Below are positions 38,788 to 50,278 of a DNA stretch of 64,000 bases, in pieces (positions within the stretch are counted from its first letter, which is position 1; each line of letters opens with the position of its first letter). A program made the position numbers and the translations under genes. Location of the stretch: contig NZ_CP058335.1 of NCBI RefSeq assembly GCF_013391105.1, positions 124,001 through 188,000 on the forward strand, in the 5' to 3' direction. The notes beneath the pieces are model-generated. The model ran no database searches, was not told where the DNA came from, and saw only the letters and a list, made by a program, of their open reading frames with translations. The stretch comes from Natronomonas salina. GTDB taxonomy: Archaea > Halobacteriota > Halobacteria > Halobacteriales > Haloarculaceae.

Positions 38788-40377
38788 ATGCACCTCAGAG
38801 ATGCAGTGGCAGCACGGTACAGTCGCCGACTCGGCGTCGCGATCGGACTCACGCTCCTCGGGACCCTCGCCTTCACGGGGCTCTTCGCGGTCTACGTCGC
38901 CCAGAACCCCGCCGAGGCCGCCGTCCCCGGGTTCGTGGCCGCGTCGATCGTCTTCGTCCTCAACCTCGGGTTGCTCGGACTCGTCCTCGCCGGGAACGTG
39001 ACCGCGGAACTCAGCAGGCTCGCCGACACCGCCGAAGCGATCGGCGACGGCGACCTCGAGGCCTCGCCCTCCTCCGACCGCTCGGACGAGATCGGACTGC
39101 TCTTCGAGTCCTTCGACGAGATGCGCGTCTCGCTGAAGGACGCCATCGAGGAGTCCGAGGCCGCCGAGGCCGAGGCCGAGGCCGCGAGGGTGGAGGCGGA
39201 GGAGCTCAACGACGCGCTGCTGGAGCACGCCGAGTCCGTCGGCACCGCGATGGAGCGGGCCGCCGCCGGGGACTTCACCCACGACCTCGACGACGACACC
39301 GGCGTCGACGCCATCGACCGCATCGCGACCGCCTACAACCGGATGGTGGCGGACCTCTCGGGGACCGTCGACGAACTCGCCGGGTTCGCCGCCGAGGTCG
39401 AGGCCACGAGCGACACCGTCGCCGAGCAGGCCGCCGAGGTGGCCGAGATGAACGGCGCCGTGGCGACGGATATCCGGGAGCTGGCGACCGACGTCGGCGA
39501 CCAGGCCGACCAGCTCCGCGCGGCCGTCGACGAGACCAACGACCTCTCGGCGATGATCGAGGAGGTCGCCTCGACGACCGACGAGGTCGCGACGCAGGCC
39601 ACCGAGGCCGCCGATATCGGCGAGGCGGGCGAGCAGCGCGCCCAGGACGCCATCGACGCGATCACCGACATCGGCCGGTCCGTCGAGGAGCTCGGCGACC
39701 TCGTCGAGCAGCTCGAGGCCCAGATGGGCGACGTCTCCGAGACGACCGGGCTCATCGACGACATCGCCGAGCAGACGAACATCCTGGCGCTGAACGCCAA
39801 CATCGAGGCCGCCCGCGCCAGCACCGGCGGCGGTGGCGGCGACGCCGGCGACGGATTTGCCGTGGTCGCCGACGAGGTCAAGAACCTCGCCGAGGAGACC
39901 CAGGACGCCGTCGGCGAGATCGACGATATCGTCGCCGACGCCCAGGGTGACGTCGCCGCCGTCTCCGAGGAGATGGACTCGACGATGGACCAGCTCGACA
40001 CGAGCGTCGACACCGTCACCGAGTCCGGCGAGACCCTCAAGGAGCTGACGGGCACCGTCGAGGACATCGACGTCGCGATGGAGGACATCGCCCAGGCCAC
40101 CGACGAGGGGGCCGCCGGCACCGAGGAGGTCGCGGCGACGGTCGACACCGCGCGTGACACCGCCGTCGACATCGCCGACGAATCCCGAGACGTCGCCGAG
40201 ACGGCCGACCGGACCGCCACCACGATGGACGAGGTCCGCACCGCGGCCGGCGGGCTGGCGGACCGCACCGCCGACCTCCGCGAGAAGCTCGACGACTTCG
40301 AGACGCAGGGTGGCACCGGCGCCACGGCGACGGCACCGGACCCCGCGCCGACCGTCGAGGGGGCGAGCGATGATTGA
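38788..40377 (+). CDS. HtrII-like membrane transducer (methyl-accepting taxis protein)
   Basis: 529 residues, same size and layout as halobacterial transducer HtrII. TM1 is about 16-38 and TM2 about 47-71, with almost no external sensor domain between, as in transducers that read a membrane partner. HAMP follows (LADTAEAIGDGDLEASP to SFDEMRVSLKDAIEESE), a second HAMP-like unit near 150-185, then the cytoplasmic signalling domain with hairpin tip EQTNILALNANIEAARA (about 328-344). N59 in VFVLNLGLLGLVLAGN aligns with HtrII Asn74, which contacts rhodopsin Tyr199. It overlaps the downstream opsin-like gene by 8 bases. No che genes nearby. Confidence 0.95.
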   Translation: MHLRDAVAARYSRRLGVAIGLTLLGTLAFTGLFAVYVAQNPAEAAVPGFVAASIVFVLNLGLLGLVLAGNVTAELSRLADTAEAIGDGDLEASPSSDRSDEIGLLFESFDEMRVSLKDAIEESEAAEAEAEAARVEAEELNDALLEHAESVGTAMERAAAGDFTHDLDDDTGVDAIDRIATAYNRMVADLSGTVDELAGFAAEVEATSDTVAEQAAEVAEMNGAVATDIRELATDVGDQADQLRAAVDETNDLSAMIEEVASTTDEVATQATEAADIGEAGEQRAQDAIDAITDIGRSVEELGDLVEQLEAQMGDVSETTGLIDDIAEQTNILALNANIEAARASTGGGGGDAGDGFAVVADEVKNLAEETQDAVGEIDDIVADAQGDVAAVSEEMDSTMDQLDTSVDTVTESGETLKELTGTVEDIDVAMEDIAQATDEGAAGTEEVAATVDTARDTAVDIADESRDVAETADRTATTMDEVRTAAGGLADRTADLREKLDDFETQGGTGATATAPDPAPTVEGASDD

Positions 40378-41092
40378 CGAACACGGCATCTACGCCATCT
40401 CGGCCCTGATCTACGCCATCGCTGCGGTGACGTACTTCGGACTGACCCGTCGGCAGCCCCGGCACCTGCGGCCGTACTGCTACCTGCTCGTCGGCGTGGT
40501 CGGGGCCGCCGCGCTGCTGTCGGCCGTCTTCGCGGTAGGGATCGGTACCATCGCCGTCGGCGGCGGCGAGGTCATCGTCCCGCAGATGATCGACGGCCTG
40601 ATCGCCTATCCGCTGCTGTTCGGCTTCGCGGCGTTCACCGCGGGGAGTTCCCGCCGCGTCGTTGCCCTGGTCGCCGGTGTCTCGATCGCCCAGCGCCTCG
40701 CCTACGAGGTCGGCGCGCTCACCGACGGACCGCTCGGCCTCGCGATGCTGCTCGTCGTGGTCGGCGGGTTCTTCGGCCACGTCTACCTGCTGTTCGGCCC
40801 CGTCTGGCGGACGGCCAGCCGGCAGTCGCCCCGCCGGCGGCTCCTCTTCTGGAAGTTCCGGAACCTGCTGCTGTTCCTCATCGGGATGCTCATCCTCGCG
40901 GCCCTGCTGTCCCTCACGCCGCTTTTGGACCCGTTCACCGGCAGCGTCGTGGTCCAGTACGTCGACGTGCTGCTCCGCGTCGGCTTCGCCGGCTTCCTCA
41001 TCGGGAACATCTCGGCGCTCGATTCGGCGGCCGGAGACGAGCCTGAGCGCTCCGAGTGGGTGACTCCCGCGGACGTCGCTACCGCGGATTGA
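40370..41092 (+). CDS. Opsin-fold protein lacking the retinal-binding lysine (sensory-rhodopsin-II-like)
   Basis: 240 residues, seven membrane helices, aligning almost without gaps to sensory rhodopsin II of Natronomonas. Helix C reads PQMIDGLIAYPLL: the counterion D75 and Pro81 are kept but Arg72 is Gln and Trp76 is Gly. Helix F reads RNLLLFLIGMLILAALL: retinal-pocket W171, Y174, P175 and W178 become I, L, I and A. Helix G reads YVDVLLRVGFAGFLI: Tyr199 and Asp201 equivalents (Y197, D199) are kept, but the Schiff-base Lys205 is R203. It cannot bind retinal covalently. Coupled to the transducer upstream by an 8-base overlap, as in htrII-sopII operons. Probably a light-blind receptor for another stimulus. 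Confidence 0.9.
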   Translation: MIDEHGIYAISALIYAIAAVTYFGLTRRQPRHLRPYCYLLVGVVGAAALLSAVFAVGIGTIAVGGGEVIVPQMIDGLIAYPLLFGFAAFTAGSSRRVVALVAGVSIAQRLAYEVGALTDGPLGLAMLLVVVGGFFGHVYLLFGPVWRTASRQSPRRRLLFWKFRNLLLFLIGMLILAALLSLTPLLDPFTGSVVVQYVDVLLRVGFAGFLIGNISALDSAAGDEPERSEWVTPADVATAD

Positions 41093-43725: not shown

Positions 43726-44628
43726 TCACAGCCACGGCGCCCGGTCGCCGTCGGAGACGCCCGGTGAGCCCGAGTCGTCCTCGGACTCGACCGGTTCGAC
43801 GGCGTCCTCGGTGTCCTCGAAGGGCTCGTCGGGGGCGCCGCCGTCGGTGGCGGCCGCGGCGTCGGGGGTCGGCTCCTCCTCGCCGAACGGCGTCGCGGCG
43901 CCGTCGGGGTTGAACGCCAGCAGGGCGGTCACCGCGAGGACGGCGAGGGCCAGCGGCGCCTCCGTCGGGATGATCCCGAGGATGGTGAACGGCAGGATGC
44001 CGAGCGCGACGGCGCTCCCGAAGCGGAAGCGGTCGATGTCGACGTTCCCGCGGAGCCACGGCGCCAGCACGGCCACGGAGAGGGCGAAGCCGACGCCGAC
44101 CGCCGCGGCGCCCGTGCCGTAGAGGACGTACGCCGGGTCGGCGACGAACTCGAACGCGAAGTCGCTCGGCCGGAAGCTGGCGACCAGCCCGAGGCTGATG
44201 ATGAGGCTGGGCCGGGGGAGGTACTCGCCGATGGTGGCGCTTGCGGTCTTCGCCGCGATGGCGAGGATCACGAGCGCCGCGAACCGCTCGAAGATGTACA
44301 TCTCCAGGACCGACTCGATGGTCGGCGCGATGGCGGCCTGCAGCGCCGCGACGGGGACGATGATCGCGCCGACGAGCAGGACGTTCTTGACCTGGTCGCT
44401 GCGGCTGCCCTCCATCTCGGCGAGGACGACCGCGAGGGTAGCGCTGCCGCCGAAGATGAGCAGGCCGACCTCAATCATGCCGAGGACGGTCGAGACGGCG
44501 CCCGCGAGGACGAGCGCGGGGAAGATTCCGTCGACGAGCGGCAGCGCCATGACGGTCGCGAGCAGTCGCGTCCCCTCGCCTACCTGCCGCTCGAGGCGTA
44601 GGGCGATCGGGTGTCGTGAGGCGCTCAT
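43726..44628 (-). CDS. Polytopic membrane protein (possibly DUF5794)
   Basis: 300 residues, seven or eight membrane helices between about 22 and 230, then a disordered acidic tail. LLATVMALPLVDGIFPALVL, VSTVLGMIEVGLLIFGGSAT and LVLAIAAKTAS-type helices give a transporter-like appearance, but no transporter motif is recognised. The start ATG at 44628 lies 4 bases from the stop of the doubtful small frame at 44632. Confidence 0.82.
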   Translation of the reverse strand: MSASRHPIALRLERQVGEGTRLLATVMALPLVDGIFPALVLAGAVSTVLGMIEVGLLIFGGSATLAVVLAEMEGSRSDQVKNVLLVGAIIVPVAALQAAIAPTIESVLEMYIFERFAALVILAIAAKTASATIGEYLPRPSLIISLGLVASFRPSDFAFEFVADPAYVLYGTGAAAVGVGFALSVAVLAPWLRGNVDIDRFRFGSAVALGILPFTILGIIPTEAPLALAVLAVTALLAFNPDGAATPFGEEEPTPDAAAATDGGAPDEPFEDTEDAVEPVESEDDSGSPGVSDGDRAPWL

Positions 44629-48684: not shown

Positions 48685-48808
48685 TGCGAATTCACCTTAC
48701 TGCGGTTGCCTGATATAGGTTCCGTTCCCGCCGCAGGCACGCCAGTCGCTCTCAATCCACGGGACGGTACGGACCAATTAAGTGCGTCCCCGCCCTCGGG
48801 GCGTCCAC

Positions 48809-50278
48809 ATGAGCAGCGCCATCTCGATGGCCTCGATGTCTACCTACGCCATCCTCGGCTGCGGGAGCGTCGGCCACGCCGTCGCCGAGGAGCTCGTCGA
48901 GGAGGGCAAGGACGTCCTCATCCTCGACCGCGACGAGGGCCGCGTCGAGGCGCTCCGCGACCAGGACCTCGACGCCCGCACCGCAGACATCGAGGACGAG
49001 GCGGCGACCGAAGCCATCACCGACCGCGACGTCGTCCTCATCCTCTCCTCGGAGGTCGAGTCCAACATGGCGGCCGTCCGGAACATCCGCGCGCGGACCG
49101 ACGACAAGTTCATCATCGCCCGCGCGTCCGACCCGGTCACGGCGGACGAGCTGAAGGAGGCTGGCGCCGACGTCGTCATCAACCCCTCGGCGGTCATCGC
49201 CGACTCGGCGCTGCGGGCGCTCGAACAGGGCGAACTCGAGTACAAGGCCACGCAACTCGCCGACGTCATCGAGTCCGGCGACTCGCTGGCCATCCTCGCG
49301 CACCGTTCGCCGGGGCCGGACTCCATCGCCTCCGCGGTCGCGCTGCAGGCCATCGCCGAGTCTCGCGACATCGAGGCCGACATCCTCTACCGCGGCGAGA
49401 TCGGCCACCAGGAGAACCGCGCGTTCGTCAACCTCCTGGGGATCGAACTGTTCTCGCTCGACGACGCCGACCTCGACGACTACGACACGGTCGCGCTCGT
49501 CGACTGCGCGAAGGCCTCCGAGCGGGTCGTGAAGGGCGAGATCGACATCTTCATCGACCACTTCGAGCCGGAGGTGGAGTACGACGCACGGTTCACCGAC
49601 ATCCGGCCGAACGTCTCCTCGACGTCGACCATCCTCACGAAGTACATCCAGGAGTTCGACCTCAGCCTCCCCGAGGAGGTGGCGACGGCGCTGCTGTACG
49701 GCATCCGCGCGGAGACGCTGGACTTCAAGCGCGACACCCGACCGGCGGACCTGACGGCCGCGGCGTACCTCTACCCGTTCGCCAACCACGACACCCTGGA
49801 GCAGGTCGAGTCGCCGTCGATGAGCCCCGAGACGCTGGACGTCCTCGCCGAGGCGATCCGAAACCGCGAGGTCAAGGGCTCGCACCTCATCTCCAACGCG
49901 GGGTTCATCCGGGACCGCGACGCCCTCTCGCAGGCGGCCCAGCACCTCCTCAACCTCGAGGGCATCACCACGTCGGCCGTGTTCGCCATCGCGGACGACA
50001 CCATCTATCTCGCGGCGCGCTCGAAGGACATCCGGATGAACATCGGCAACGTCCTGCAGGACGCCTTCGGCGAGATCGGCGAGGTCGTCGGCCACTCGAC
50101 GGACGCCTCTGCGGAGATCCCGCTGGGCATCTTCACTGGCCTGGAGATAACCGGCGACAACCGCGATACGCTCCTCCAGTTGACCGAGGAGGCCGTCAGG
50201 ACGAAGCTGTTCGAGGCGATGGGCGTCGAGAGCGGCAGCAGTTCCAGCAGCGGGAGCGAGTCCTCGAACGGTAGCTAG
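48809..50278 (+). CDS. Rossmann (TrkA-N)-DHH phosphoesterase fusion protein
   Basis: About 489 residues. The N-terminal NAD-binding domain reads YAILGCGSVGHAVAEELVEE (about 11-30) and extends to about 130. A DHH/DHHA1 phosphoesterase follows: AHRSPGPDSIASAVALQ carries the first motif (SPGPD in place of DxDxD-type), ALVDCAKASERV and IFIDHFEPE carry others, where the signature DHH is DHF, and the DHHA1 tail is near 450. The altered motifs leave catalytic competence uncertain. Start by TATA-like CAATTAAG about 30 bases upstream; ATG 48836 is an alternative. Serine-rich C terminus. Confidence 0.88.
   Translation: MSSAISMASMSTYAILGCGSVGHAVAEELVEEGKDVLILDRDEGRVEALRDQDLDARTADIEDEAATEAITDRDVVLILSSEVESNMAAVRNIRARTDDKFIIARASDPVTADELKEAGADVVINPSAVIADSALRALEQGELEYKATQLADVIESGDSLAILAHRSPGPDSIASAVALQAIAESRDIEADILYRGEIGHQENRAFVNLLGIELFSLDDADLDDYDTVALVDCAKASERVVKGEIDIFIDHFEPEVEYDARFTDIRPNVSSTSTILTKYIQEFDLSLPEEVATALLYGIRAETLDFKRDTRPADLTAAAYLYPFANHDTLEQVESPSMSPETLDVLAEAIRNREVKGSHLISNAGFIRDRDALSQAAQHLLNLEGITTSAVFAIADDTIYLAARSKDIRMNIGNVLQDAFGEIGEVVGHSTDASAEIPLGIFTGLEITGDNRDTLLQLTEEAVRTKLFEAMGVESGSSSSSGSESSNGS

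Follow-up and report, generated by a model that had tools for sequence, protein, structure and literature searches.

The gene at positions 40370–41092 (+ strand) of the window, the whole stretch of 64,000 nucleotides of Natronomonas salina DNA that was analysed, encodes an opsin-like protein with arginine in place of the retinal-binding lysine. A transducer gene lies directly in front of it. The locus raises the question of what such a receptor senses and where its signal goes. A first-pass annotation regarded the protein, here called ORP1, as a former light sensor that had turned to a different stimulus, and a transducer-coupled protein of this kind in an archaeon as new or little described. 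We know of no ligand or stimulus for any haloarchaeal opsin-related protein (ORP).

Fold and retinal site of ORP1

The frame of ORP1 is open from the ATG at 40370 to the stop at 41092 and encodes 240 amino acids. The Pfam profile Bac_rhodopsin matches with 43.4 bits (E 3.7e-11), above its curated cut-off of 24.6 bits. No family was returned by NCBIfam for ORP1, and Rfam gave no match across 36–44 kb of the window. The top match among PDB sequences is sensory rhodopsin II of Natronomonas pharaonis (NpSRII; E 6e-16), and this alignment is free of gaps across helices C to F. The AlphaFold model, calculated from an input of 30 aligned homologues, comprises seven main helices with a mean pLDDT of 90.1. 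When this model is used in a Foldseek search, ranks 1–16 are all occupied by NpSRII (probability 1.00). By profile and seven-helix fold ORP1 is a type 1 (microbial) opsin, as the first-pass annotation had proposed.

The position of the helix G Schiff-base lysine, Lys205 in NpSRII, is taken by Arg203 (codon CGC, 40976–40978, + strand). In SRII numbering the changes are R72Q, W76G, W171I, Y174L, P175I, W178A and K205R. The pocket aromatics W76, W171, Y174 and W178 are replaced by G, I, L and A, respectively. On account of Arg203 and of these residues ORP1 does not qualify as a functional retinal-binding rhodopsin or SRII. Asp75, Tyr199 (Tyr197 in ORP1; 40958–40960, + strand) and Asp201 (Asp199 in ORP1) are kept. 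All of these replacements and retained residues had been read correctly in the first-pass annotation.

The transducer HTR

HTR (38788–40377, + strand) is an HtrII-like transducer of 529 amino acids, and its end overlaps the start of ORP1 by 8 bp. It consists of TM1–TM2, a HAMP domain (Pfam, 6.5e-17) and an MCP signalling domain (MCPsignal, 3.9e-37) and has no outer ligand domain. The closest solved relative of its membrane part is NpHtrII. The N-terminus aligns with NpHtrII (2f95_B, E 1.6e-15) and includes the Asn of the INLGL motif, which we take to be Asn74 of NpHtrII; the counterpart in TM2 of HTR is Asn59 (38962–38964, + strand). Of 56 transducers, 40 have Asn and seven have His here; the remaining nine were not matched by the pattern. 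On the receptor side, Tyr197 corresponds to NpSRII Tyr199, a transducer contact residue (as cited in PMC4915679), and is invariant in the family described below. Since both Tyr197 and the HtrII-like N-terminus are kept, the coupling end of the SRII–HtrII machine is retained and the retinal end is lost.

The ORP1–HTR and NpSRII–HtrII pairs share the receptor fold, the pairing with a transducer, the interface Tyr and Asn and a TM1–TM2–HAMP architecture that lacks an outer domain. Retinal bound via Lys205, Asp75 as its counter-ion, the pocket aromatics and an output via CheA/CheW are found in the NpSRII–HtrII pair only.

The hairpin tip of HTR carries a 6-residue insertion (RASTGGGGGDAGDGF; 39814–39858, + strand). 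This insertion had looked unique within the first set of 27 loci described below, until the congener G018 was compared. The transducer of G018 (L144) has an insertion of equal length; the other ORP-linked hairpin tips that the pattern matched are six residues shorter than those of HTR and L144. Decay after the loss of CheW was considered as its origin and rejected, because G018 possesses CheA and CheW.

A 4TM histidine kinase is located 600 bp upstream. It was rejected as a part of the ORP1–HTR unit, as no relative occurs in the other ORP loci searched. Elsewhere in the window, positions 43726–44628 encode a DUF5794 protein and positions 48782–50278 a protein with TrkA_N and DHH domains.

ORP1 belongs to group A of the haloarchaeal ORPs

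A survey of 80 haloarchaeal genomes revealed 48 lysine-less opsin homologues, which were named opsin-related proteins (Becker et al. 2016, PLoS One; PMC4915679). ORPs of group A have Arg at the lysine site and an adjacent HAMP/MCP transducer in 15 of 16 cases, and those of group B have Leu or another hydrophobic residue at this site. The pocket losses include Y174L and W178A, with W76D in group A; Tyr199 and Asp189 are conserved. Transcription of ORPs was shown, two purified ORPs (one of them from Halorubrum distributum) had no absorption peak with retinal, and a sensory role unrelated to light was proposed (PMC4915679). ORP1 is a member of this already described group A, and the novelty expected in the first-pass annotation is therefore lost. 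The other part of its proposal is retained: in view of the opsin fold, the missing retinal lysine and pocket and the transducer partner, a stimulus other than light is the best reading for ORP1.

ORP1 and group A have in common the Arg at the lysine site, Y174L, W178A, the retained Tyr199 and Asp189, the adjacent HAMP/MCP transducer and the placement in a clade beside the sensory rhodopsins. ORP1 differs from typical members by Asp75-Gly76 (40592–40597, + strand) in helix C, where Asp76 is usual; this Asp is typical of the group but not defining. The unusual part is the genomic setting. No Che system, archaellin, Brp/BCD or lysine opsin was detected in the genome of ORP1, and a second ORP without a transducer is present.

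Among 391 Halobacteria genomes (at least 90% complete), 55 have a group A ORP. A first set of 27 loci comes from Halorubrum (including Hrr. distributum), Haloarcula, Halomicrobium, Halosimplex, Halorientalis, Halobacterium, Halorussus, Natrialba and Natrarchaeobius. The HTR gene is directly upstream of the ORP in all 26 of these loci with upstream DNA, mostly with overlapping frames. The same holds for 55 loci of a second set of 58, some of which stem from the same species. Of the remaining three loci, one lies at a contig edge and the others are solo ORPs (G018 and the genome of the window). Orthologues with the same Arg and a transducer neighbour, which the first-pass annotation had suggested looking for, are thus widespread. 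In genome G190 (L141:1492-2231) the reading frame of the ORP is broken into two parts by either a frameshift or a sequencing error, and the transducer in front of it looks intact.

In the phylogenetic tree the 19 lysine opsins are set apart from all lysine-less sequences (99). Group A forms one clade (SH-aLRT 99), which lies beside the sensory rhodopsins and contains both ORP1 and the second ORP of the same genome (ORP2). The nearest relatives have less than 50% identity. The sole exception seen to Arg within the group A clade is L146 with Ser; other residues at the site of lysine-less opsins are His (L018) and Val (L008). A further clade, f7 (L011, L150, L155, L156), has Arg at the lysine site and keeps Arg72 and Asp75. 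Because f7 groups with the Leu-type ORPs of group B and not with group A, Arg at this site appears to have arisen at least twice.

Lysine-less opsins are also known outside the haloarchaea. In bacteria and algae, Rh-noK proteins and FArhodopsins have the type 1 rhodopsin fold, and many members are without the lysine (PMC7714340, PMC10308929). In contrast to ORP1 they belong to other lineages and some are found beside a working pump (PMC7714340, PMC10308929); the FArhodopsin cluster has no transducer genes. The opsin-related proteins of fungi are likewise lysine-less type 1 opsins with proposed roles other than light sensing, but their lysine was lost separately (PMC4915679) and they have no MCP partner.

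A putative Arg-acid switch

Six residues, Y80, K162, R164, N165, Y197 and R203, are invariant across 61 group A sequences; as only sequences with Arg were counted, the invariance of Arg203 follows from the choice of sequences. Tyr80 (40607–40609, + strand) is located in helix C and replaces Thr80 of NpSRII. Position 76 is Asp in 52 of the 61 sequences. In the other nine this position is not acidic. Eight of these, ORP1 among them, have Asp or Glu at position 75; by eye on the tree the eight represent about four lineages. Accordingly, 60 of the 61 sequences have an acid at 75 or 76, the exception being L133 with Asn at both positions. An acid at 75 is more common in sequences with a non-acidic residue at 76 (Fisher p 0.017 for 53 distinct sequences, a test that ignores relatedness). 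The first-pass annotation had put weight on the equivalents of Asp75 and Asp201. Both are present, but they tell little, as both vary within group A; the near-invariant acid is that of position 76, where ORP1 has none.

The invariant Arg203 and Tyr80 together with an acid at 75 or 76 in 60 of 61 sequences suggest, at the level of sequence conservation, that an Arg203-acid pair replaces the Schiff base. Arg203 of helix G would form a salt bridge to the acid of helix C (Asp75 in ORP1, Asp76 in most relatives) beside Tyr80. This bridge would be a fixed stand-in for the pair of protonated Schiff base and Asp75. A stimulus other than light, such as a small ligand in the emptied cavity, an ion or pH, or the state of the membrane, would break or make the bridge. 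Helices F and G would then shift, and the shift would be relayed via Tyr197 and Asp187 to TM2 and the HAMP domain of HTR, as in SRII–HtrII. In most relatives the final step would be the control of CheA. In the genome of the window, where CheA, CheW, CheR and archaellin were not found, this step is missing; the output of the pair may have been lost recently or another output may be used.

The complete explanation, in which ORP1 is a group A ORP and a retinal-free, SRII-related membrane receptor that is produced as a unit with its own HtrII-like transducer and has an Arg-acid switch and a non-light stimulus, is given a probability of about 0.6.

CheA, CheW, CheR, archaellin and Brp/BCD were not found in the genome

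The genome of the window (G000) is a single contig of 3.75 Mb with a completeness of 99.84%. A Bac_rhodopsin search of the genome found two matches only, ORP1 and ORP2, both with Arg, and no lysine opsin. ORP2 (L145:7863-8540, - strand; G000:C1 about 2284862-2285539) belongs to group A and is adjacent to a MatE transporter gene. There is no transducer beside it, and a single solo ORP (L143) occurs in the congener G018 as well. Brp/Blh and BCD were not found in G000, and the same BCD search was positive in eight relatives. L060:1465-1917 is an ORF of 150 amino acids in this genome with one domain of the lycopene-cyclase type (CarR).

CheW, CheA, CheR and archaellin were not found in G000 by searches that were positive in relatives. 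HTR has the architecture of an HtrII-type transducer, but the corresponding CheA/CheW output is missing here. CheW is present in 329 of the 391 genomes (at least 90% complete) and in 54 of the 55 group A genomes, with G000 as the sole exception when the two lists are compared by eye (Fisher p 0.001 for the counts of CheW and group A ORPs, relatedness ignored). In the congeners G001 and G002 no CheA, CheW, CheR or ORP was found. Since these congeners are also without CheA, CheW and CheR, the loss of the Che system in G000 is probably real and no assembly gap. Two clear MCPs are left in G000, HTR and L061. The latter (L061:511-2124) is a soluble-looking orphan MCP with a PAS-like N-terminus and, by eye, no evident membrane helix.

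Is the pair still functional?

Judged from its frames and residues, the ORP1–HTR pair looks intact. An intact pair in a genome in which CheA, CheW, CheR and archaellin were not found means that the output is lost or runs by another route; a recent loss of output and a retained function would both be compatible with these data. The lineage may have lost motility and chemotaxis and left ORP1–HTR as a functionless remnant that has not yet decayed. This is a serious possibility, though short of an even chance. It is favored by the missing genes in G000 and its congeners, by the position of G000 as the only group A genome without detected CheW, by the small number of clear MCPs and by the lack of a transducer beside ORP2. 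On the other hand, both frames are open, the third-position GC of ORP1 (0.92), HTR (0.95) and ORP2 (0.96) resembles the value of 0.92 for guaB, another gene of the window, and the family-invariant residues are intact in ORP1. The hairpin insertion is no sign of decay either, given its equal-length counterpart in the CheA-bearing G018. Moreover, this explanation covers only the present state in G000 and is compatible with the proposed receptor mechanism in the relatives.

It is rather doubtful that ORP1–HTR signals independently of CheA and CheW, for instance by acting directly on another kinase or on a membrane protein. That the pair and ORP2 are both intact in a genome where CheA and CheW were not found is consistent with such a route, as are the likewise retained orphan transducer L061 and the 4TM histidine kinase on the same strand. 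This kinase, however, has no relative beside other ORP–HTR pairs, and an archaeal MCP that functions independently of CheW and CheA is not known to us. A retinal-free opsin and an MCP-type transducer that form a working receptor with an output without CheA/CheW, in which the opsin fold is plugged into a different signalling route, are unlikely.

The sensory-opsin fold and the transducer would also suit a photoreceptor in which retinal or some other chromophore is held with no Schiff base. This is highly improbable: W76, W171, Y174 and W178 are all replaced, Brp/BCD was not found in G000 but in eight relatives, and the purified ORPs were without an absorption peak (PMC4915679). A pseudogene or a sequencing error at the Arg codon, the latter raised as a possible assembly error in the first-pass annotation, has nothing in its favor and a negligible probability, as the frame is open, CGC is at least two base changes away from any Lys codon, and Arg is present in 61 of 61 group A sequences and in ORP2.

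The haloarchaeal ORPs are a large family, with group A alone present in 55 of 391 genomes. The conserved Arg203, Tyr80 and helix C acid provide a concrete and testable model of a switch for its members. The pair of G000, in a genome where no Che system was found, offers a test of whether the output of an ORP and its transducer extends beyond motility, or of how fast such a receptor decays after motility is lost.
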